DNA of 27,231 nt, from positions 1 to 27,231 of the forward strand of contig JALPMN010000596.1 of NCBI GenBank assembly GCA_024243835.1, written 5' to 3'. Both the position numbers and the translations under genes were made by a program. Positions 4,557 to 23,433 of the stretch are shown one piece after another; the stretch's first letter is position 1, and each line of letters begins with the position of its first letter. Source of the DNA: Enteropsectra breve. Lineage: Eukaryota; Microsporidia. The notes beneath the pieces were generated by a model. It ran no database searches. It was not told the DNA's origin and was given only the letters and a program-made list of their open reading frames with translations.

Positions 4557-6569
4557 TTATAGTGAAAACACACGTATCAGTCCGCATGCACTTCCCACTG
4601 CAAATTTGCTGCCTGCTTTATTAAAAGCAACAGAATTTATCTGTTTAGATGCAACTTTCAGGCTTTCCATCTTGTCTTCTCCAATATTCCACAAAATTAT
4701 TTCTCCACTGATGGTGCCGAGCACGATCTGATTATCACTTCTGGTGCTAAATGCCAGCGAGCGCACTTCACTGTCCACCTCTTTTGTGGCTATTATTTCA
4801 AGTGTCTCGTAGCTATAAACAATGATTTTGCTGTCTCTTGCACATGTTGCGAAGTATTTTGAATTTGAAGAAAAATCGCAATCCCAAATAGCCCTGGTAT
4901 GATCGGTTAAAATCTTATTCAAAGTTAACAATCCATTATCAATGTCATACAAACAAGCAGTTTTGTCTCTGCTGACTGTTAAGACTCGCCCACTGCATGC
5001 TGCGATCTTTTGTATTCCCAGCTCATGATCTGTCAAATATTGCTTTTTGTTTCCTTGATGGTCCCATACAAAAAGCCCTGCAAAATTCCTGCTCAGACTC
5101 TTGTTGCAGCTGAAAATAAGCTTTTGATTTACAGCGATATTTTTGATTTCAAAATAATGGCCATACAGCTTTTTCGTTTCCTTAAAAACATTTGAAGAAA
5201 GGCTGTTTTCAGAAAGGCGCTCTTCGTTGGGCTCGGCCACAATTTCATTTGTCAAATTCAGCTCGGCCATTATGGCAGTTGCTTCGTAGTTTTCAGCATT
5301 TTCTATTTCAAGCACTGTCTCTGAGTCTCCCTCATAAAGATCCTCAGCCTCCTCACAGTTTTTGAAGAAATTTTGTGTTCCCTCAAATATTCTTAGGATG
5401 GTTTCTTGTCCTGCTGAAATAAAGCATATTTTATCCCCGGGAATAAATTTTGCACTTGCAAGAGAATATCCGTGGGTCTGTGGTCTTCCGCACTCAAAGC
5501 CCTTGTAAAATATTCTTGCGGTCATATCAAGTGAGGACGAAAGCAGCATTTCATTTTCATTCCAATCCAGGTCTGTTACTTCGTCTTGGTGTCCGCTAGT
5601 GAAGTATTTGCTGCCGTAATATTCAGGTTCAGCATCCTCCTCCGCAGCATCGCCCAGTATATCGATGCCTCCTGTTCTGCTCTGGCCGTAGATCTCGTTT
5701 CCTCTTATCAGCACTCCCAGAAATGCGGATGTTCCTCCATAAATCATAATTGACTGGTAAACCTCTAGTTCTGAGCCTGGATTTTTATAGGCGCGCCAGA
5801 CCCTGATGGTTTTGTCTGAAGAAGCCGAATAAAGAATTGTTTTATCCCAGAAAAGGGCATTTACCCAATCGGCATGACCGTTTAGTGTTTGAATTAGGCT
5901 TAATTTGTGGCATTCTCCCACGCTTCAGACTTTTATGTTCGTGTCCAATGAGCACGTTGCCATTTTAGCTCTGCCGTCTATATAAGTTATTTTTATATCT
6001 GTTATGCCATTCGTGTGAGCCTCTATCTTTTCTAATAAGAGCACTTTTAACTCTTCATTAATATTATTTTCAATTTTGTATGAATAGAGAGACCCGACAC
6101 TGCTTCCAACGAACAGGATTTCATCTAAAATGTGCATGCTGCTGATCAAATACGGCATCTTATTTTCGGATACTTTCTCTGTTTGCAAATCGTAAACGAA
6201 AAGCTTGTTTAGAGATGAAAAAGCAAATAAGTTAGAGGTGAGGATCTTGCAGTGCTGAATGGTGGAATTCATTCTGATTATTTTTTGTATTCGATCATTT
6301 TCTATTAGATAGCCGTTTCCATCGACATCTGCAGCCAGTATTTGAGCGTCAAGAGAATCGATCGCATTTGCATTTGATTCGAGAAATATCACATTTTCGC
6401 ATTTGCTGCTCATTTTTACGATATTGGACTGTGAAAGATAGTAAATGTGCTCCCCGTGCACGCATATTGCATTTGCTTTGGCTGATACTCCGGCCTTTGT
6501 ATAAATCTCCTGCATATCGGTAAAATTTTGAAAATATTTTAGACAAATCCACTGGGAGTTGCGTGCCAT
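4557..6569 (-). CDS. ELP2: Elongator subunit ELP2, WD40 protein, interrupted by one in-frame TGA
   Basis: Read as one frame this locus encodes 670 positions of WD40 repeats and matches Elp2, the double-propeller subunit of the Elongator complex that modifies wobble uridines of cytosolic tRNAs. The second part carries features I associate with Elp2: 'LSLIQTLNGHADWVNAL', 'SASSDKTIRVW', 'SGHQDEVTDLDW', then 'PQTHGYSLASAKF' and 'GQETILRIFEGTQNFFKN'. The first part (codons 1-214) contains further propeller blades and ends in 'SLDTNIKV'. Codon 215 (5927-5925) is TGA and the frame then continues 'SVGECHKLSL...' with no other lesion. There is no ATG at the start of the downstream half (the first candidate is GTG), so two separate genes are unlikely. 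The stop sits where a WD repeat normally has its closing tryptophan (TGG). It may be a sequencing error, a recent pseudogene or readthrough. No CCC signal precedes the ATG at 6569. Confidence 0.75.
5925..5927 (-). other. In-frame TGA at a conserved WD-repeat tryptophan of ELP2
   Basis: The minus strand reads ATA AAA GTC TGA AGC GTG GGA. The preceding residues SLDTNIKV and the following SVGECHKL are both typical of a WD repeat end, so TGA replaces the expected TGG. Both flanking frames are open for hundreds of codons. Confidence 0.85.
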
Positions 6570-6831: not shown

Positions 6832-7206
6832 TTAGTTTTCAAGCACCAGTTCACTGTTATCAACCTTTGCGAACATCAGCTGGGCAATTCTCATACCCGC
6901 TGTGTATTCAAACTCATTATTGCTCGTGTTGTATATGTGAACAACAACCTCTTCGTTGTTCTTCACGTATGAAGGCTTTATTTCAAGGCCGTTCTTAAGG
7001 GCCAGTCCCGATCTTCCCATCAGGATTCCCAGAAATTCATAAGGAATGCTTAAGGAAAATCCAGTCTTGACAGACACAAGTGAATGTGGCGGAATAACAC
7101 CTGATTCAAGGCTGCACACATCGTATCCTGCAGCACCAGAAGAGTGCCGTTGTGGCACGCTTGCATTTATCTTAAGTCGCTTGAATGTCACGGAGGCTGG
7201 ATTCAT
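6832..7206 (-). CDS. dUTPase-like protein A, lacking motifs 3 and 5
   Basis: This 124-residue protein has the trimeric dUTPase fold signature. Motif 1 is AAGYD (25-29), motif 2 is GRSGLA (64-69) and motif 4 is RIAQLMF (106-112). Motif 3, normally an Ile-Asp-x-x-Tyr-x-Gly loop carrying the catalytic Asp and a base-stacking Tyr, is here EIKPSYVKN (75-83): the Tyr remains (Y80), but Lys stands where the Asp is expected and the loop is about four residues shorter. The glycine-rich C-terminal motif 5 (RGxxGFGSTG) is absent. The protein ends 12 residues after motif 4, and no remnant follows the stop. It lies just downstream of a second dUTPase-like gene on the same strand. Known dUTPases hydrolyse dUTP to dUMP and PPi. 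This copy alone should not work in the standard way. The start is supported by a TTTTACCCA signal. Confidence 0.8.
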   Translation of the reverse strand: MNPASVTFKRLKINASVPQRHSSGAAGYDVCSLESGVIPPHSLVSVKTGFSLSIPYEFLGILMGRSGLALKNGLEIKPSYVKNNEEVVVHIYNTSNNEFEYTAGMRIAQLMFAKVDNSELVLEN

Positions 7207-7497: not shown

Positions 7498-7926
7498 TTA
7501 ATGAGAGAGGAGACCTGTGGATCCGTAGCCGTTTAGTCCTCTTTCAGTTTCATCCAATGAATCTGTAATTTCATACTCACCTCCGTATGTCTTCAATATC
7601 ATCATTCTTGAAAGAACGGAATTTGGATCAACCTCCACCTCATCCTTCTTGTGATTTATGACATGAAAGTTTATTTCCTGTCCAGTTCCTATAAAGTCCC
7701 TGCTTACCTCAATGTGGTTATTCTCGGGTGTTGATGGAACACCCATGAGCAAAACAAGCCTGTTCTGCAGCTTCTCGACGGTAATGCCAGACGGGAGCGT
7801 CTCATCCTCGCCAGCCTTGAAGGCCTTGTGGTAGATATTGTGCATGTCGTATCCAAACGAATCTCCGTGTACTTTCTGAGGCAGAATTGCTCTGTCCTTG
7901 GATTTTGTAATTTTAATGACACCCAT
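7498..7926 (-). CDS. dUTPase-like protein B, retaining motif 5
   Basis: I place the start at 7926 because that ATG is preceded directly by GACCCTA; an upstream in-frame ATG at 7998 would add 24 residues unlike the family. The protein is then 142 residues, close to the usual dUTPase length. Motif 1 is recognisable (SFGYD, 23-27). The C-terminal motif 5 is well kept (ETERGLNGYGSTG, 126-138). Motif 2 is lost: no RSxLA, with GVPSTPENN (62-70) in its place. Motif 3 is reduced to RDFIG (76-80), with Ser where the catalytic Asp belongs and Phe for Tyr. Motif 4 is SRMMILK instead of RxAQLxF. The losses are nearly complementary to those of protein A next door. It could be a partner subunit, a dUTP-binding regulator, or a decaying duplicate, although the frame is intact. 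Confidence 0.75.
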   Translation of the reverse strand: MGVIKITKSKDRAILPQKVHGDSFGYDMHNIYHKAFKAGEDETLPSGITVEKLQNRLVLLMGVPSTPENNHIEVSRDFIGTGQEINFHVINHKKDEVEVDPNSVLSRMMILKTYGGEYEITDSLDETERGLNGYGSTGLLSH

Positions 7927-7933
7927 TAGGGTC
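7927..7933 (-). promoter_or_regulatory. ACCCTA signal fixing the start of dUTPase-like B
   Basis: The minus strand reads GACCCTA immediately before the ATG at 7926, almost identical to the TACCCTA before the TyrRS-like gene. This favours 7926 over the upstream ATG at 7998. Confidence 0.55.
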
Positions 7934-7998
7934 ATTCTAAAGAAAAATATTTTTGAGAAAATTGATTTAAAATATTTTGTGAGAATGCAAACTGACAT

Positions 7999-8818: not shown

Positions 8819-11257
8819 CTAAACTTCTTTTTTCCTTGCGTTATTCGGCCAGCAAAATGATTGAGTAAAATTCAAGCTGTTGTTTCTTTTAGTAATTGCT
8901 TGTTTATTTCTTTCTTCATCAACTATCATCATGAAGAAATACATAAGCCTCTTATTATTTATAAAGGAGGGGTGAATAGCTACAAGTATCAATTCAGCAT
9001 ACTGAGCAATTATTATATTGCTTTTATTTTTAACCCAGTAGGCAACAGCCTTGGAAAAATCCTGGCCAATAGGACTTTGATTCACTATTTCTGCCACAAT
9101 ATCTGTATTTAGCCTTTTTATTAGATTATTGTCCCTAATGGAGAATATGATCATCCCCGTGTCTTTATATTCCTTGTTTAGCAACATTTTCTTAAAGATC
9201 ATGTTTTGATGTCTCTCCGGCAGCACATCAAAAAGACCAATCCCTCTGCCCATTGCACATATTAAAATACTCCACAGATCAGAATCCACATCGCTCTGAG
9301 AATAAAATTTCTTCTTATTCCAATATGATGGTTTGTGTTCTATCTCTTGCCTTACATAAGCATGAACAGCATGAGCATTGTTTTGGTTCAAAAAATCAGT
9401 ATTCTCCAGTGCTCTCTTTATAATTTCATATAGCCTTTCAGCTCCAAAAATATACTTACGGATTATCAGGTTTCTAAGATCATCTTCTGTGGTCTCAAAG
9501 TGCTGCAGAGCAAAAACAACACCTGAAATAAGATCTTCAGCGCAGCCATCAAAAAGAAAGTTCTGGTACAGCATGTTTACAACATCAACGAAACTGGCAT
9601 CTTGAGTGCGAAAAAATTCTTTTACAAACAGAAAACACACGTTGGATCTTTGTTCTTGGTTCTTCATATGCTTTATCATAATATTAAAGGCTTCTTTGTA
9701 GTTTATAGTGAGGTAAACTCTCGTCTTTGCTATAAACTTCACAAAAACCAAGTCCCACACAAACCATAGAGAGTCCAATTGCTTGTTATCCGGAAACTCA
9801 TTATCCTGCTCAGTGCCATTGTTGGCAAAACTCCCTGCTGCAATTTCACAAATAAAATCATAGAGAATGCCTATTTCTCTTGGAACTTTATTTCCATTGT
9901 AGTATTGGCTTATATTCAGTGAAAATATTCTGACCCATAAGACCTGAAAAAGGACATCAATGCCTTTAAATTTTGAATTTTCTTTGGCGAGTTTAAGGGC
10001 CCAATCAAAAAGGAATTCAAAATCTTGCTCTTTAATATTTCCTCTGTTCGAAAATACAAAGCTATTTGGTTCTTTTGAAACAGACATGTTGATTTTATAC
10101 AAGTTGCGCAGCCTACCGAATTCATTTTTCAATGCCTCTTTCTCTAAGAGCGTGAGCTGCAGTTGATTATCATACGATTTATTCTTTGAAAAGCTAGCAC
10201 TTACAAATCCGAGCAAGTGATCAGCAACTTCTGAAAAAGATGGAAAGTTTTTATGGCTCACCATTGCATAGTCCATCATGCTGCAATAATACCTTGCTTC
10301 ACTCAAAGTCATATTCGAAATAAAACCCATAAACTCCCTATTGTCAGACGAATCATCTAAAATAGACTGCATGAGGTACTTGTAAACACGCTCATCTCTC
10401 ATATTCGCTCTCCTGTACAAGCTTTGTATTATTTCTCCCATAGCATATTTGCTGTTATTGTCCCTAAATTTTTCACAAAGAAAAATCCCAAATTCAAAAG
10501 CATCTAACTGATTATCTTTAGACTGAGGCAGTTGTGAGACAGCCAAGTTGAAAACATTGAGCTCTGAACTGCCAAACTTTATGATACACGCTATTCTGAA
10601 GAGGTTTGCAAGGGCATCCTTCTTTGCATGTTTGCAGAAGTTCTGAGCCTGTAACAGAGAATTGTGGCTAAAGTTTTCATTTAGCAGATAGCTAATTACG
10701 TAAAGATTATCCGCAGCAAGTAAAAGTACTCGATCGTATGATGCAGCTCCATTCACATAGTACCACAGAGCATACGATAAAAACTCATTTGGATTGAAAT
10801 AAAAGTCGTAATGACATTTTGGGCAGTATGCCCAGTAATTGGAGTTTCTGTGCCCCTGATTCTTCTTATCTGAGTCGAGTAGCTCATTCTTAAGAATGTG
10901 ATAAAGCTGTCTTTTCATTTTTAAAAAATCTTTTCTTTTCATTTTTGAAGAATCAATTTTTTCCACATTCATCTGCAATGTTTGTGCTATGATGCATATA
11001 GTGCTGAAAGTTGCCGTGCATTGAGCATTCGGACACTTTAAAATGCGCAGCGAGAATCTTTTCATATAATCCCTTGCTGGAATCGCAGGAGGATCAGAGT
11101 TGATGAACGTTCTGCAGCAAACCGTACATTTAGTGCTGCTGTTTATGACTATTTGGCCCTCCACCGCAGTACATAGGAGCCTTTTGTATTTATCTGTGCC
11201 CCCTTTTGGCTTGCTTGCTAAGATTTCGAGGAAATGCAACCAAAAATAGATTCTCAT
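8819..11257 (-). CDS. Large C4HC3-like zinc-finger protein with signal-peptide-like start (R1)
   Basis: I do not recognise a named family for this 812-residue protein. The N-terminus (MRIYFWLHFLEILA) resembles a weak signal peptide. A cysteine cluster follows: C44-x2-C47, C75-x4-C80, C88, and C145-x2-C148. In the paralogue at 12773-13807 the same pattern includes a His three residues before the C88-equivalent, giving a PHD/RING-CH-like C4HC3 order. In this copy that His is Ser85. Directly after the last pair comes FYFNPNEFLSYALW (152-165), nearly identical in the paralogue. The remaining 640 residues look alpha-helical. The gene is divergent from a small secreted-protein gene starting at 11995, an arrangement repeated at 12773-14916. 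It may be a host-exposed protein with a ubiquitin-ligase-like finger, but loss of the His weakens any enzymatic inference. Confidence 0.7.
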   Translation of the reverse strand: MRIYFWLHFLEILASKPKGGTDKYKRLLCTAVEGQIVINSSTKCTVCCRTFINSDPPAIPARDYMKRFSLRILKCPNAQCTATFSTICIIAQTLQMNVEKIDSSKMKRKDFLKMKRQLYHILKNELLDSDKKNQGHRNSNYWAYCPKCHYDFYFNPNEFLSYALWYYVNGAASYDRVLLLAADNLYVISYLLNENFSHNSLLQAQNFCKHAKKDALANLFRIACIIKFGSSELNVFNLAVSQLPQSKDNQLDAFEFGIFLCEKFRDNNSKYAMGEIIQSLYRRANMRDERVYKYLMQSILDDSSDNREFMGFISNMTLSEARYYCSMMDYAMVSHKNFPSFSEVADHLLGFVSASFSKNKSYDNQLQLTLLEKEALKNEFGRLRNLYKINMSVSKEPNSFVFSNRGNIKEQDFEFLFDWALKLAKENSKFKGIDVLFQVLWVRIFSLNISQYYNGNKVPREIGILYDFICEIAAGSFANNGTEQDNEFPDNKQLDSLWFVWDLVFVKFIAKTRVYLTINYKEAFNIMIKHMKNQEQRSNVCFLFVKEFFRTQDASFVDVVNMLYQNFLFDGCAEDLISGVVFALQHFETTEDDLRNLIIRKYIFGAERLYEIIKRALENTDFLNQNNAHAVHAYVRQEIEHKPSYWNKKKFYSQSDVDSDLWSILICAMGRGIGLFDVLPERHQNMIFKKMLLNKEYKDTGMIIFSIRDNNLIKRLNTDIVAEIVNQSPIGQDFSKAVAYWVKNKSNIIIAQYAELILVAIHPSFINNKRLMYFFMMIVDEERNKQAITKRNNSLNFTQSFCWPNNARKKEV

Positions 11258-11994: not shown

Positions 11995-12495
11995 ATGTTA
12001 TGTGCTTCTAGATCCCAACTGTTGAAACTGCTTCTTATGTTAGTGCCGATCTTCTCCTCGAGAGAGGAAACGTCACTTCCAGCCTCTTTCTTTGATGTGC
12101 AAAGTGCTCTTGATGCAAGACAAAGAAACTATCCTCCCAAAGTTTACTATAGGAAGAAACTAAACCTGCACGGAGAATATGGAAGTTTTATTTTTGTTGT
12201 CGATGATAACGAAGCTCAATGGAGTCCGGTTCATTTTGGTACGGGTTTTAAACTTATCCGGCCAGGATATGAAACAGAAACTATTTCACTTCTCTTATTG
12301 AACGTTGTGGACATCAAAGTTACTGGGCCTTGGTTCAAGTGGGAGGCCAAATACCATCAAAATTTTGCAAAAGGAGAGGTTGAGTTTTGTTCAAACGCTT
12401 CATTACTTAAATATAAAAATGACAAGGGCACAGAGGATTTTGCTAAGGAAAGGTATATAGAGGTTGCCGTTTACCCAACAGACAGTAAGGAGTAA
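11995..12495 (+). CDS. Small secreted protein S1, member of a duplicated family
   Basis: This 166-residue protein has a good signal peptide: SRSQ then a hydrophobic core LLKLLLMLVPIF (about 9-20), with cleavage likely before or near residue 25. The mature part shares a distinctive pattern with the paralogue at 14389-14916: TSLPxSF, SALxAR, PPKVYYR, FKLxRPGYETE, PWxKWE, KGTEDF and a C-terminal YIExxVY. The mature region has only one cysteine and no transmembrane segment, so it is probably exported. I do not recognise the fold; the spacing of short beta-like segments suggests a compact beta-rich domain, which is inference. It is divergent from zinc-finger gene R1. Confidence 0.7.
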   Translation: MLCASRSQLLKLLLMLVPIFSSREETSLPASFFDVQSALDARQRNYPPKVYYRKKLNLHGEYGSFIFVVDDNEAQWSPVHFGTGFKLIRPGYETETISLLLLNVVDIKVTGPWFKWEAKYHQNFAKGEVEFCSNASLLKYKNDKGTEDFAKERYIEVAVYPTDSKE

Positions 12496-12772: not shown

Positions 12773-13807
12773 TTATCTATCAAATAAGGTTTTACTCTCA
12801 GCAAAATTCTTATGTTTTAAAATATCTTCATCAAGACTGCGAAGAAATGCCGATTCTCTGCTGAAGTTCATTTTAAGGACAAACTCTTTCATTCTGCTTC
12901 CGTCATTAGCCGTGTTTAGCATCTTCAAAATAATATAGCTTATCTCTTCTTTTTCTATCTCCATAGACTTGTTTAAAAGCACCACAAGTAAACCTTCAAT
13001 TGAGCTTTTGGATCGTTTCAAAAATGCGTCACAGGAGCTAATAAAGAATTCCTTCCTCACATAAGGTAGAATAAATTGCTGGTTAATAAAAGTGATGAGC
13101 ACAGCAGCAAATTCCTTGTGCGTAGTTCCTTTCATTTTAACTACAGCAACGAAATAAAGCATCTCTGAAAGTATCTTCAAACTCGTCTTCTCCACTCGAA
13201 ACGAACAGGTTGAAAGTGCCTTAATACCATAGTTTTGTAACAATAAGCTTTTAAAGATATAAATACTGTTGTACATCAGATGGAAATCACTGTCTTGAAG
13301 ATATGCTTTGTTGTTGCTGTATAGCCATAGGATGTACGAGAGAAATTCATATGGGTTGAAGTAAAAGACCATTCTACATGTTGGACAGTCCATCATACAG
13401 CTATTATGCAGTTCATTCAGCTGCCTATCTGCCCGCATTTGTATCTCTTTTATGCAAAGCTGATTCAGTTTCTCGTTCATTTCGGGAAAGCATAGTGGAG
13501 CACCTGCCATAGCAAGAGAATAAGAAATCAGGCAGTGCTTGTGAAAAATAGATTTGCAGCAGGTATTTGGACATTGCAAGATTCTTAATGACATTTCATC
13601 TTGATACCCACCACTTTCATACCAAGGCATTTCAGTTTGTCTAAATGCATCATGGCATAGGTGGCATGCTCTGTTGCTATTTACTACATCTTTCATCTCC
13701 GAAGCGCTGTGACCCATCCTATCATATCTTGTAATTTTGTCTGCAGGGCTGAATGACAGCGTCTTGTGTAGTAAAAGAATAGCAAAGATTCGCATGTGGC
13801 AATACAT
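12773..13807 (-). CDS. Shorter C4HC3 zinc-finger paralogue with signal peptide (R2)
   Basis: This 344-residue protein is a paralogue of the N-terminal 330 or so residues of R1. From the first Met the finger ligands are C48-x2-C51, C79-x4-C84, H89-x2-C92 and C141-x2-C144, a full C4HC3 set of the PHD/RING-CH type with long loops. The conserved FYFNPYEFLSYILW (148-161) follows. The start could be Met5 (13795), because MRIFAILLLHKTLSF then aligns with the R1 N-terminus and forms a cleaner signal peptide. The end (MKEFVLKMNFS...HKNF) still aligns with the middle of R1, where R1 runs on for about 470 more residues. The 277 bp downstream cannot hold that region. R2 is therefore a truncated copy, or R1 gained a C-terminal extension. 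It is divergent from secreted gene S2. Confidence 0.7.
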   Translation of the reverse strand: MYCHMRIFAILLLHKTLSFSPADKITRYDRMGHSASEMKDVVNSNRACHLCHDAFRQTEMPWYESGGYQDEMSLRILQCPNTCCKSIFHKHCLISYSLAMAGAPLCFPEMNEKLNQLCIKEIQMRADRQLNELHNSCMMDCPTCRMVFYFNPYEFLSYILWLYSNNKAYLQDSDFHLMYNSIYIFKSLLLQNYGIKALSTCSFRVEKTSLKILSEMLYFVAVVKMKGTTHKEFAAVLITFINQQFILPYVRKEFFISSCDAFLKRSKSSIEGLLVVLLNKSMEIEKEEISYIILKMLNTANDGSRMKEFVLKMNFSRESAFLRSLDEDILKHKNFAESKTLFDR

Positions 13808-14388
13808 GAATCCTATTATATAGCTTTAAAATGATAAATATTTTAAGTTTAAAAAAGTTTATTCTATTAGCAGCATAGGATTAGAATGCGGATACCGAAA
13901 CAAACCCAAAGCTATAGATTTAAATAAAGAGCTAGTGAAAAACATTAGTATAGGAATAAAAATAATCTCTATTTCATAATGTCTTTGGTATAATCAATTA
14001 TGATAGTCCCCATGTTTAGAATGATCAAAATCTACAAATGAAAAATGTTACGCTTTTTTATTTACATGAGCTTTATAATACAAATAATAACACTACCATC
14101 TATTCTACAACATTGTTGGCTAAATAGATACTCAAAGGTGCGCTCCCTTTAGCTAGTTAAACGAATACTCATCATAAAATACAATGAATTTTAGATTTTT
14201 TAAGAGCAAATGAAACGCAAGTGAATTAATTATTTTAAACTGTCTCCTGTTGAGATTTTTAGTAAACATTTCTAAAATGGTGATAAAAACAAGAGCTAAT
14301 CTAGAAAATCATTCCCTTAATAATCACTTGACATATTTTCTTGCTAATTTTATTAAAAAAAATTTTACTTCAAGGTTCTAATCCCTTA
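13808..14388. other. Divergent intergenic region between R2 and S2
   Basis: An AT-rich spacer with no supported gene. It must contain the promoters of both diverging genes. The S2 end carries an AAATTTT block and a CCCTTA element (listed separately). Confidence 0.5.
14360..14388 (+). promoter_or_regulatory. AAATTTT and CCCTTA signals of S2
   Basis: AAATTTT lies near 14360-14366, and TCCCTTA (14382-14388) directly precedes the ATG at 14389. This fixes the start inside a longer frame that opens at 14341. Confidence 0.55.
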
Positions 14389-14916
14389 ATGGATCACGCT
14401 TTTAGATCACAAATATTAATATTCCTGCTTATTTTAGTGCCAATCTTCTCAGTGAGCCCAGGAACGTCCCTTCCTTCTTCATTTCTTAATATTGAAAGTG
14501 CTCTCTATGCCAGAATTAGAGAAGATCCTCCCAAGGTTTACTACAGGATGACTCTCATCACGTCGTTAGAAGTTTATAGAAATTACATTTTCGCCATTGA
14601 TGATGGTGAAGAACACTGGCAACCAGTGTATCTTGGTGATATGTTTAAACTTACTCGGCCAGGCTATGAAACTGAAGCCCTCCCATTCATCCCTCGATAT
14701 TACGCCCTTCTCAAAACTACATGCCCTTGGTCAAAGTGGGAGAGCAATTATCTTCTTCTTAAAAGAGGAGACAGATTTGTTTTCTTTAATGACATGTCTT
14801 ATCATAAAATTAATGGAGACAAAGGCACGGAAGACTTTTCAACGGAAAAATATATCGAGGCCAAGGTCTATCGAACGTCTAATAGCGAGAATGCCACTTT
14901 TTCTCAACCTGAATAA
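14389..14916 (+). CDS. Small secreted protein S2, paralogue of S1
   Basis: The start at 14389 is chosen because it aligns with the S1 start (FRSQILIFLLILVPIF against SRSQLLKLLLMLVPIF) and follows a CCCTTA signal. A non-ATG opening 48 nt upstream is less likely. The 175-residue product has a strong signal peptide (hydrophobic core about 8-20). The mature part carries the same landmarks as S1: TSLPSSF, SALYAR, PPKVYYR, FKLTRPGYETE, CPWSKWE, DKGTEDF and YIEAKVYRT. Similarity is clear but far from identity, so the duplication is old or the proteins evolve fast. Function unknown; export is likely from the signal peptide. Confidence 0.7.
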   Translation: MDHAFRSQILIFLLILVPIFSVSPGTSLPSSFLNIESALYARIREDPPKVYYRMTLITSLEVYRNYIFAIDDGEEHWQPVYLGDMFKLTRPGYETEALPFIPRYYALLKTTCPWSKWESNYLLLKRGDRFVFFNDMSYHKINGDKGTEDFSTEKYIEAKVYRTSNSENATFSQPE

Positions 14917-15146: not shown

Positions 15147-15613
15147 CACGGCCCGCGGGCCGGATCCGGCCCGCTGCATGGATCAATCCGGCCCGCGGCA
15201 AAAATTTTAGTGTTTAATAAAAAGTCACATGAGATAATAAGTTGTTTTATCGATTTTATATTATTAGGTAAGTTAAATAAAATGAAATCGAAAAGAAGCT
15301 GTAAATTATGCTTGTTTGCCATCCAATATCTTGTTTTATTTGAGTTTAATTATAATTACTAAACTTTAATATAAACGAAAAAAAATAAACGATAAATATC
15401 GCTAAATCTTTTACTTTTAAAAAATTTAGATCGAAAATACATCGTTTGTGTTTTTTTTCATGTTAAATGGCTCAGATAAATTTCTAGCTAAAGTTGCACT
15501 TCTTTGGTTTGGCTATACTTACACTACTAAAAAAATTAATTTTGATTCCATGGGCAAGATGTTTCAGCCGTTTCAAAAAATTTTTATTTCTTAAAATTTT
15601 TTCTTTAACCGCC

Positions 15614-17434
15614 ATGTATTCTAACTTAAATAAAAGCAGAAAGGTAGATAAGGAAGGACGTGTATTTAACGTCGAATGGTCTGTCAAATATTTTATAGCA
15701 GAGATCAATGAAAAAATTGTTTGCTTAATATGCAACGAATATATTTCTGTGCGGAAGGAGTATAACATACGGCGGCATTATGAGACAAAGCATGCAGCGA
15801 TATATTCTAAACTTTGTGATCCAGAGCGCTTGGCGGAATTAGAGCGATTAAAAAGAACAGTGCCATCTCTGGACAAAATATTTCAAAAAATTACTAATGT
15901 TAACAAATCTGCATCCTTGGCGAGCTTAAAAATAACTAATATATTAGCAAAACTAGGTAAGCCATTTACCGATGGAAATATTATTAAATCCTGTTTACTT
16001 ACAGCAGTTGAGGAACTGTGTCCTGAACAGTTTGAATTGTTCCATTCAATATGCTTATCGCCGAGATCTATTGCAAGGCGGATCGATGAAATCGGCAATA
16101 ATATTACCGATCAATTAGTAGAAAGAACAAAAGCATTTAAATGGTTTTCTCTCGCTCTGGATGAGTCAACAGATATAACTGATACTGCTCAATTGCTTAT
16201 TTTTATCCGTGGGATCAGTGCTGAATTTGAAATAACAGAGGAATTAGCATCTTTAAATAGTATAAATGGAACAACAAAAGGTGAAAATATTTTTTTAGAA
16301 GTAGAAAAAACATTAAAAAAACATGATTTAAAATGGAATCAATTGAAATCAATTACAACGGATGGCGGAAAAAATGTAAGTGGAACTGGAATTGGATTAA
16401 TTGGGCATATTTTTAGGGCTTGCGAAGAGGCTAATTGTAATAGGCCATTAGTAATACACTGCATTATACACCAGCAAGCATTATGTGGGAAGTATTTAAA
16501 CATGGCATCAGTTATTGAACCAGTTGTTGCTACTGTGAATTTTATTCGCGCTCGAGGACTTAATCATCGAGAGTTCCGTAATTTCTTATTAGAAATTGAT
16601 GCCGAATATCCAGATTTGCCATACCACACAGCTGTTAGATGGCTAAGCAAAGGAAAAGTACTTAAAAGGTTTTTCGAGCTACGGGCAGAGATAGACATTT
16701 TTCTTAAGGAAAAGAATAACTCACAGCCGCTGCTATCAGATAACGAGTGGATTTGGAAATTAGCATTTACAGCAGATATCCTGTCATATCTCAATGAATT
16801 TAATTTAAAGCTGCAAGGTAAAACGGTCTTAATATCTGAGATATATTCGGTTGTTATTTCTTATCGACGTAAATTTAAATTATTTGAAACACAAGTGTCT
16901 TCAAATATATTCGATCATTTTCCATGCTGCAAAAGTATAAAAGGCTTATCTCAAGCAAAAATACCAATTAAGTTTGCAGTGGATATTTGTTCTGAATTAA
17001 ACGTACAATTAGAACAGCGATTCGCAGACTTAGATGCACAAGCAAGTAATATGACAATTTTTGAAAATCCATTTAATGCATCAATAGAAAAAGTTCGTTC
17101 ACATCTCCAACTAGAAATAATAGATTTGCAGAGTGACAATGTTCTTAAAGCAGCATTTAAAGAAAATCAAAATAATCTAGTAATATTTTATAAAAATCTT
17201 TCTGGTGACAAATATCCTGAGCTTAAATCATTCGCGGCAGAGTTTATTTCAATTTTTGGAAGTACCTACTTGTGCGAACAAACATTTTCAAAAATGAAGT
17301 ATGTCAAATCGCAATACAGATCTACATTAACTGATGAGAATTTACAAACAACTTTAAAAGTAGGATGCACTAATTTTGAAATTGATTATGATAAAATTTT
17401 ATCAGAGAGATCACAATTTCATTCATCTCATTAA
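15614..17434 (+). CDS. hAT transposase with BED-type zinc finger
   Basis: I start at the first ATG (15614), which gives 606 residues; the upstream open frame lacks an ATG. A BED-like finger comes first: C37-x2-C40 with H55 and H60 in the segment EYNIRRHYETKHA. The RNase-H-like catalytic core follows, with D183 in LALDESTD, D250 in ITTDGGKNV, a C283-x2-H286 motif in IHCIIHQQALC, a TAVRWLSKGKVLKRFFELR segment, and E555 in STYLCEQTFSKMK within the C-terminal hAT dimerisation region. The similarity is to transposases that gave rise to animal ZBED5/GTF2IRD2-type genes. All expected catalytic residues are present and no frameshift is seen, so it may be active. It should cut and paste the surrounding 2.5-kb element. 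The animal-like affinity suggests acquisition from a host. Confidence 0.93.
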   Translation: MYSNLNKSRKVDKEGRVFNVEWSVKYFIAEINEKIVCLICNEYISVRKEYNIRRHYETKHAAIYSKLCDPERLAELERLKRTVPSLDKIFQKITNVNKSASLASLKITNILAKLGKPFTDGNIIKSCLLTAVEELCPEQFELFHSICLSPRSIARRIDEIGNNITDQLVERTKAFKWFSLALDESTDITDTAQLLIFIRGISAEFEITEELASLNSINGTTKGENIFLEVEKTLKKHDLKWNQLKSITTDGGKNVSGTGIGLIGHIFRACEEANCNRPLVIHCIIHQQALCGKYLNMASVIEPVVATVNFIRARGLNHREFRNFLLEIDAEYPDLPYHTAVRWLSKGKVLKRFFELRAEIDIFLKEKNNSQPLLSDNEWIWKLAFTADILSYLNEFNLKLQGKTVLISEIYSVVISYRRKFKLFETQVSSNIFDHFPCCKSIKGLSQAKIPIKFAVDICSELNVQLEQRFADLDAQASNMTIFENPFNASIEKVRSHLQLEIIDLQSDNVLKAAFKENQNNLVIFYKNLSGDKYPELKSFAAEFISIFGSTYLCEQTFSKMKYVKSQYRSTLTDENLQTTLKVGCTNFEIDYDKILSERSQFHSSH

Positions 17435-20930: not shown

Positions 20931-20934
20931 TTTT

Positions 20935-21006
20935 AGGCACCACCGAGATTCGAACTCGAGACCTTTTGTTTACAAGACAAATGCTCTACCACTGAGCTAT
21001 AGCGCC
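20935..21006 (-). tRNA. tRNA-Thr (anticodon UGU)
   Basis: A full cloverleaf folds on the minus strand: acceptor GGCGCTA with TGGTGCC, D arm GCTC-AGTGGTA-GAGC, anticodon stem TTTGT/ACAAA with loop CTTGTAA (anticodon TGT, reading ACA), variable loop AGGTC, T stem TCGAG/CTCGG with loop TTCGAAT, and discriminator T. CCA is not encoded, as usual for nuclear eukaryotic tRNAs, and there is no intron. The internal A box (TAGCTCAGTGGTAGAGC) and B box (GTTCGAATCTC) are intact. T-run terminators follow. Confidence 0.95.
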
Positions 21007-21203
21007 TAATTAGTTTTCCATTTATAAACTCATATAGAATTTATATCGTTGCTAACTTAATACTAACTTTTACTTTTGAGTTACCAAGGACATTCAAAGG
21101 AGTGTTGTCTTAAAAGTAAAATAAATTTTATAAGAGTATTTTGTCGATATTCCCGCATACCTTTAATATTTTTTCATATGAAACTTTATTTTGCATGGCA
21201 CCT

Positions 21204-22434: not shown

Positions 22435-23433
22435 TCACTTAAATGCCTTTTTAATTAGTTCCTCATGCTCCTGCATCCCATTTCTGATACTCGAAACAAA
22501 TCCCTCGATGCATTCAGCAAGAGCATTCTTCAAATCGCCTGGATGAATTTCCTCAAGCGAATAGGCCTTCTCAAGATCCTCAAAATTTGCATATTTCCTG
22601 TTGTTTATCTCAATACAGGAATCACTGCCTGCGATTATCTTTCTGGACAGCAGCGGGAACACCATGAATTTTATAAGCCCAAGAACACCAGTGCTGCTAT
22701 TTCCTGGCTCGCAGAAACACTTCTTGATTTTGTTTGAAATCTGCTTTTTGGTATCAAGCAGATCGATTTTCAGAAGCTCTTCAAGACCAGCGTATTTTTC
22801 AAAGTCAATTTCAGAGGTGTCTTTGCCGAGCAAAAATGCCTGCTGTTCGTAGCTGAGCTTTGGCAGAAACTTGTTTGCATGCTCAAACATTCTCCTAAAT
22901 CTAACAGACTGGTACACAGCATCGCATCTGGCGTAGTGCGCATCAAGTGCCATCATATTGGCATACAAAAGAGTGCTCAGCAGGCCATTCTCATTATCGG
23001 CACACGGCTGCTTTCCTGCCTGAAGAGCATCCTCAACGGTTGTGTAGCTGCTTATTCTGTAGATATCGAAAGTAAAGTCATTTTGAAACTGGTGCTCTGA
23101 AGCTACTTTGAATGAAATGTCACTGATGCCCATGCCCTTAAAGACGAGCTTAACAATCTCCATGTAGTACTTTGTTTTCAGCTCCTGTTTCTCCATGTCT
23201 GTCTTTGGATCCTCCAGGAAGCCATGCAGGTCCTGCAGCAAAATCTTCACATTGCAATTCGCATCGATAAAATCCTTCACATCCATGAACAGAAGCACAT
23301 CCCCGAGTGTGAGCCTGCTGTTCGCAGTCATTGGCCAGCAAATGTCCATCCGCTCTTTGCTCTCACAGACTTTTTCGCCATTTATAACATCAGCAAGCGA
23401 TGTCTTAGACAGGAATGCTTTGGATATCGCCAT
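22435..23433 (-). CDS. Tyrosyl-tRNA synthetase homologue with erased active site (pseudo-TyrRS)
   Basis: This 332-residue protein aligns along its whole length with the eukaryotic/archaeal TyrRS catalytic and anticodon-binding core. Landmarks include VKILLQDLHGFLED (62-75), FDIYRISS (122-129), GLLSTLLY (150-157), KIDLLD (222-227), KKCFCEPGN (237-245) and LEEIHPGDLKNALAE (293-307). The catalytic signatures are gone. The first-motif segment reads WPMTANSRLTLGDV (33-46) without the HIGH-like His. The KMSSS segment aligned just before KIDLLD is KYAGL (213-217). In the tyrosine pocket Y157 and D164 remain, but the neighbouring Gln is M161 and the GGIDQRK segment is QSVRFRR (175-181). The frame is intact and the start carries a TACCCTA signal, so the gene is probably expressed. 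It should not charge tRNA-Tyr by the normal mechanism. A regulatory, tRNA-binding or structural role is inference. Confidence 0.8.
   Translation of the reverse strand: MAISKAFLSKTSLADVINGEKVCESKERMDICWPMTANSRLTLGDVLLFMDVKDFIDANCNVKILLQDLHGFLEDPKTDMEKQELKTKYYMEIVKLVFKGMGISDISFKVASEHQFQNDFTFDIYRISSYTTVEDALQAGKQPCADNENGLLSTLLYANMMALDAHYARCDAVYQSVRFRRMFEHANKFLPKLSYEQQAFLLGKDTSEIDFEKYAGLEELLKIDLLDTKKQISNKIKKCFCEPGNSSTGVLGLIKFMVFPLLSRKIIAGSDSCIEINNRKYANFEDLEKAYSLEEIHPGDLKNALAECIEGFVSSIRNGMQEHEELIKKAFK

Follow-up and report, generated by a model that had tools for sequence, protein, structure and literature searches.

What would an organism do with an intact gene for a tyrosyl-tRNA synthetase (TyrRS) whose product has lost the signature motifs of its active site? 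Enteropsectra breve, described in its genome paper as a microsporidian that infects nematodes (PMC10393165), raises this question at 22435..23433 (minus strand) of a 27,231-nucleotide stretch of contig C117, which we analyzed at its full length and refer to as the window.

A TyrRS-like gene with replaced catalytic motifs

The locus is an intact open reading frame of 332 codons. Its 332-residue product matches the Pfam family tRNA-synt_1b (E = 1.5e-20), human TyrRS structures (E = 2.4e-56) and yeast TyrRS (E = 2.5e-40), and the landmarks VKILLQDLHGFL, FDIYRISS, KIDLLD, CFCEPGN, and HPGDLKNALAE follow one another in collinear order. The predicted model is a confident, full-length TyrRS fold consisting of a Rossmann catalytic domain and an alpha-helical anticodon domain. 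The frame and the Pfam match bear out the original prediction of a TyrRS-like paralogue with collinear landmarks at this position.

Alignment with human TyrRS confirms that the catalytic motifs have been replaced, as had been read from the sequence. The HIGH-equivalent segment is CWPMTANSRLTLGDV (residues 32-46; 23296..23340, minus strand), in which human Tyr39, His49, and Tyr52 become Cys32, Thr42, and Asp45. The tyrosine-pocket segment is QSVRFRR in place of GG[IV]DQRK (residues 175-181; 22891..22911, minus strand), and KYAGL stands in register for KMSSS (residues 213-217; 22783..22797, minus strand). Among 224 aligned TyrRS-like proteins that we retrieved, KMS is absent at this place only in the window copy and in P0119, which has QMSSS. 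The protein is thus a pseudo-synthetase in an intact frame, catalytically dead by its motifs, although the statement that all catalytic signatures are erased goes too far: HIGH, GGxDQRK, and KMSSS are lost, while the first Lys of KMSSS remains, as do Y157 and D164, which align with human Tyr166 and Asp173, residues that we take to have a role in the catalytic site.

The anticodon domain has kept its motifs, CFCEPGN (residues 239-245; 22699..22719, minus strand) and HPGDLK (residues 297-302; 22528..22545, minus strand), so that both the FCxxG and the HPxD residues are present. HPGD corresponds to HPMD of Mj TyrRS, its His and Asp to Mj His283 and Asp286. These two Mj residues are reported to contact G34 (PMC10135938).

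The ATG of the window gene is directly preceded by CCC (ACCCTAATG), presumably a microsporidian start signal, and the "clear start signal" originally noted here is plausible; the start of the second TyrRS gene described below has no such CCC. At four of eight start sites examined (23433, 7206, 7926, and 26710, minus strand), CCC lies at most a few bases from the ATG, and it may be a start signal of the E. breve genome.

Several other features of the window were observed in passing. Two adjacent WD40-like frames on the minus strand, 4557-5921 (454 residues, with a GTG start) and 5925-6569 (214 residues), appear to be two parts of a single beta-propeller protein. An hAT-type transposase frame at 15494-17434 (plus strand, 646 residues) has no internal stop and matches a zinc finger and the C-terminal hAT dimerization region. 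Two pairs of look-alike proteins, both without a Pfam match, are likely lineage-specific families: a small pair with a hydrophobic N-terminus (11995-12495 and 14341-14916, plus strand) and a larger, Cys-rich pair whose N-terminus appears RING-like by eye (8819-11257 and 12773-13807, minus strand). A tRNA-Thr gene (anticodon TGT) lies at 20934-21007, minus strand.

A second TyrRS gene and reciprocal motif loss

A second TyrRS was sought in the same genome by sequence search of 155 contigs (3.96 Mb) and is present on contig C152 (L002:1498-2475, minus strand), unlinked to the window gene on C117 and identical letter for letter to the E. breve NCBI protein P0121. Besides these two TyrRS-like loci, the contigs contain a single tRNA-synt_1b gene, which we read as TrpRS, and no further TyrRS-like protein named as E. 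breve appeared among the 120 matches listed. The published assembly is given as about 6.0 Mb (PMC10393165), so that a third, complete TyrRS or a complete dUTPase (see below) may lie elsewhere in the genome. Two of the contigs, C63 and C64, carry tRNA-Arg (ACG) at the identical position 807-878 and may be duplicates.

The C152 protein has the full set of catalytic motifs, with PHIAYF as its HIGH segment, FGGVDQRK, and KMSSS. Its anticodon motifs are gone: DVEE (DVEELK) replaces HPGD, and CMDASC replaces the CFCEPGN loop, while the fold of the anticodon domain is otherwise kept. Of the 224 aligned rows, 216 have the Asp of HPGD, and the eight without it are the C152 copy, P0163 (truncated), P0122 (double-length), and five of Nosema/Vairimorpha type. 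A separate observation concerns the CP1 segment, which in the C152 copy (YMIDSFKMAKNTT) departs from the usual YTxDxYKxSSxTT, as it does in the Nosema-type rows, and which the window copy retains (FTFDIYRISSYTT); by sequence, this departure may mark another division between the copies, on the dimer surface or the acceptor-stem surface.

We counted losses against 67 canonical microsporidian TyrRS rows chosen by rank from the matches (68 in one per-copy test), leaving out the Nosema-type rows, P0163, P0173, and P0186 (the last only from the 67-row set), and placed the boundary between the catalytic and anticodon domains at KIDLLD. At a conservation of at least 90%, this yields 117 columns, 97 catalytic and 20 in the anticodon domain. 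The window copy has lost 60 of the 97 and 3 of the 20, keeping 17, whereas the C152 copy has lost 4 of the 97 and 5 of the 20 (F264, E304, H313, P314, and D316 in P0002 numbering), the latter a loss that is small in number; the canonical rows have lost a median of 2 catalytic columns (maximum 9) and 0 anticodon columns (maximum 3). At 75% conservation, the columns lost by one copy only number 73 in the window copy versus 5 in the C152 copy for the catalytic domain, and 4 versus 9 for the anticodon domain. Because the columns depend on one another and the test was devised after the pattern had been noticed, the p-values are descriptive: a post hoc Fisher p of 1.5e-6 for the one-copy-only losses at 75%; 4.2e-6 at 75% and 9.3e-6 at 90% in a second, 60-row alignment with overlapping sequences; and, for the contrast between domains within a single copy, 0.0002, 0.002, and 0.019 for the window copy and 0.0075, 0.035, and 0.11 for the C152 copy at 90%, 95%, and 98%, respectively. 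Taken singly, the window copy shows the sharper contrast of the two.

In a tree of 64 rows, both copies fall within the Enteropsectra/Pancytospora group (a 14-row branch with support of 100/98), and the window copy sits on a terminal branch of 4.87 changes per column. A tree with the two copies as sisters is other than the best one and is not rejected (p-AU 0.058). Joining the window copy to the TyrRS of Nosema/Vairimorpha type was also tried and is rejected (p-AU 0.012). We saw no orthologue of the window copy among the best 120 of 208 matches to the full-length protein, among the 58 matches to its anticodon domain (10 of the 25 new proteins inspected), or in viral contigs; the best matches listed are canonical TyrRSs at 42% or less. 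Conservation of this pseudo-synthetase across microsporidia is not supported by these matches.

A proposed heterodimer and competing explanations

TyrRS is described as a homodimer whose site for a single tRNA extends over the two subunits (PMC8319005). With such a site and reciprocal motif loss, an obligate heterodimer made by two genes is the simplest reading, and, judging from sequence, the TyrRS of E. breve is probably an obligate heterodimer of the two unlinked paralogues. The two genes, their predicted folds, and their reciprocal losses are observations; from them we infer the pairing, the inactivity of each copy alone, and the division of labor on the tRNA. The C152 gene would supply the sole active site, binding tyrosine and ATP and taking the acceptor end of tRNA-Tyr, and the window gene would supply a catalytically dead dimer body together with the sole working anticodon-reading domain. 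One tRNA-Tyr would lie across the pair, with its acceptor end on the C152 subunit and its anticodon on the window subunit, in the geometry of an ordinary TyrRS dimer but with a single productive half. Presumably, a homodimeric TyrRS was duplicated within the Enteropsectra/Pancytospora group, and complementary degeneration followed. Among the roles first suggested for the window protein, that of partner to a genuine TyrRS is the best supported, with the amendment that the second TyrRS is itself incomplete; because the anticodon motifs missing from the C152 copy are those still present in the window copy, a vague pseudoenzyme becomes a specific complementation hypothesis.

Our literature search (titles and abstract openings) returned no split or heterodimeric microsporidian TyrRS. 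Neither two search patterns nor ARAGORN (38 of the 61 tRNA places) found a tRNA-Tyr of E. breve; one of the tRNA places, L039, resembles by eye a tRNA-Ile with an intron.

The main competing explanation is that the C152 protein works as a lone homodimer that relies on the acceptor stem and dispenses with anticodon recognition, and that the pseudo-synthetase of the window has a job of its own, whether regulatory, structural, or in binding tRNA. We consider this unlikely, yet it deserves attention because six TyrRSs of Nosema/Vairimorpha type (P0148, P0164, P0168, P0160, P0171, and P0213; three assigned by name and three by tree placement) resemble the C152 copy in having intact catalytic motifs and lost anticodon columns. 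All six keep the catalytic motifs (3-6 of 97 columns lost) and have lost 7-10 of the 20 anticodon columns, the FCEPGN and HPGD motifs included; F264, E304, H313, and P314 are lost in all six and D316 in five. Unlike the E. breve copies, they belong to a separate lineage. To our knowledge, no dead TyrRS partner has been described in Nosema or Vairimorpha, and we found none in the anticodon-domain search, in viral contigs (query P0148), or in genome contigs (query P0213, which returned three archaeal loci only), a set that includes no Nosema genome. As judged from sequence, these lineages either have a dead, anticodon-reading partner too or have shed anticodon reading without one, and the latter would favor a lone C152 enzyme. 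Pseudo-synthetases with other roles are documented (PMC9437257), and in Archaea and Eukarya the acceptor-stem pair C1-G72 is reported as an identity element for tyrosine (PMC9976931). What a lone C152 enzyme does not predict is that the dead copy should keep the very motifs that the live copy lost, or that it should retain a TyrRS-like body over its whole length.

A rebuilt active site in the window copy, one with which it would still activate tyrosine or some other substrate, is much less likely. The residues retained at the positions of human Tyr166 and Asp173, together with the first KMSSS Lys, would suit such a site, but the 60 changed catalytic columns include the HIGH, GGxDQ, and KMSSS positions. 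A decaying pseudogene is more improbable again. The very long branch and the lack of an orthologue among the matches listed are what such decay might leave, but the 332-codon frame is intact, its codon-position composition resembles that of the neighboring genes, 17 of the 20 anticodon columns are kept, and the predicted fold is confident. Moreover, neutral simulations starting from the C152 frame (n = 2000) left 6 frames open at 0.2 changes per site and none at 0.5, so that an open frame at such divergence is unexpected without selection. Least probable of all is a mixture of two organisms in one assembly: the assembly is fragmented (155 contigs), but the Rio-type kinase and Bms1/Tsr1-like genes of the window (Pfam) each occur at full length at a single place in the genome and have just one other match, weak and partial, and both TyrRS copies lie inside the Enteropsectra/Pancytospora group.

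Asymmetric synthetases, dUTPase, and wider meaning

The proposed E. breve heterodimer has a close parallel in the double-length TyrRS pseudo-dimer of trypanosomatids (Leishmania major, 3p0h/3p0j; Trypanosoma brucei), in which, as in the motifs of the E. breve pair, one half is dead and the other is without anticodon recognition, but in which both halves reside in one polypeptide. Reportedly, to judge by the title of a study of the T. brucei enzyme, both units are needed. In the fused protein, KMSKS is described as changed to ARAVL in one half, and the other is said to have an anticodon domain affected by a six-residue deletion (PMC8319005). When set against the L. major enzyme, the models of the window and C152 proteins both align best with its N-terminal half (3-352 for the window protein; best alignment per chain), and structure therefore fails to mark the window copy as the counterpart of the dead half.

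A two-gene parallel is found in the animal mitochondrial SerRS2alpha/SLIMP pair, of which neither subunit is reported to charge tRNA alone (PMC10570016). Here too the active site is ablated in one subunit and the tRNA-recognition domain is lost in the other; the pair differs in being a mitochondrial SerRS and in having lost a whole coiled-coil domain rather than a few anticodon residues. SerRS is a class II synthetase, and the homology of the window protein is to TyrRS and not to SerRS. The double-length TyrRSs of plants and nematodes are duplicated like those of E. breve, but fused; both Arabidopsis halves reportedly keep HIGH and KMSK (PMC9437257), and the nematode enzyme is said to share the plant organization (PMC7564348).

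Two retrieved proteins carry comparable asymmetry: P0122 (545 residues), a double-length TyrRS, has a catalytic first half with DPRE for HPGD and breaks off in its second domain, and P0229 (455 residues) opens with a dead half in which KINVP replaces KMSSS but FCEPGN and HPGDLK are kept, and continues into the beginning of a second half carrying PHVAYF. Asymmetric TyrRS pairs thus recur, but these are fused. Separately, P0245 (301 residues) and P0249 (205 residues) keep FCEPGN and HPGDLK, show no catalytic motifs by eye, and have no Pfam match; from their sequences they are possibly dead TyrRS halves in other eukaryotes. The window and C152 genes are a variant of this known asymmetric-synthetase theme, new in being unlinked and in another lineage.

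A second enzyme of E. breve shows a related pattern. The contigs hold four dUTPase-like genes (PF00692), all with intact frames, whose motifs we read from alignments by eye against the dUTPase motif consensus. Two lie in tandem in the window on the minus strand: the gene at 6832-7206 keeps motifs I, II, and IV and not III or V, and the gene at 7498-7998, whose true start may be the CCC-preceded ATG at 7926, retains motif V and a part of motif I and not II, III, or IV. The other two lie in tandem on contig C93 (L057:809-1156 and L057:1450-1833, plus strand), and each keeps motif III, has a degraded motif IV, and lacks I, II, and V. No complete dUTPase was found with PF00692 in the 3.96 Mb of contigs. 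The classical trimeric site is described as drawing motifs I, II, and IV from one subunit, III from a second, and V from a third (PMC7948977, PMC8961515). The split of motifs suggests that the E. breve dUTPase may be heterotrimeric, and it raises the likelihood that the TyrRS pattern reflects real complementation; no heterotrimeric dUTPase appeared among the 20 listed of 1,647 literature matches. Thymidylate synthase, a dimer with a shared site, gave a single strong match in the contigs, so that the dUTPase and TyrRS patterns are not blanket duplication; SAM synthetase, tried as another control, gave no match in them.

We offer only tentatively a broader reading, in which at least two E. breve homo-oligomers with subunit-spanning sites (TyrRS, and dUTPase with its motifs divided as I, II, IV / III / V) may have become obligate hetero-oligomers by duplication and complementary loss, with the Nosema/Vairimorpha TyrRS as an independent second case whose partner would have gone unrecognized. 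The split-TyrRS reading predicts such an unrecognized dead partner in the genomes of Nosema and Vairimorpha, which have received much attention in work on bees and silkworms. If the heterodimer is real, E. breve would have placed TyrRS chemistry and anticodon reading on different proteins independently of the trypanosomatids and without fusion, and would provide a natural case of a homodimer turned into an obligate heterodimer by complementary degeneration. This would have happened within a reduced genome, in which gene loss rather than gene gain is expected.
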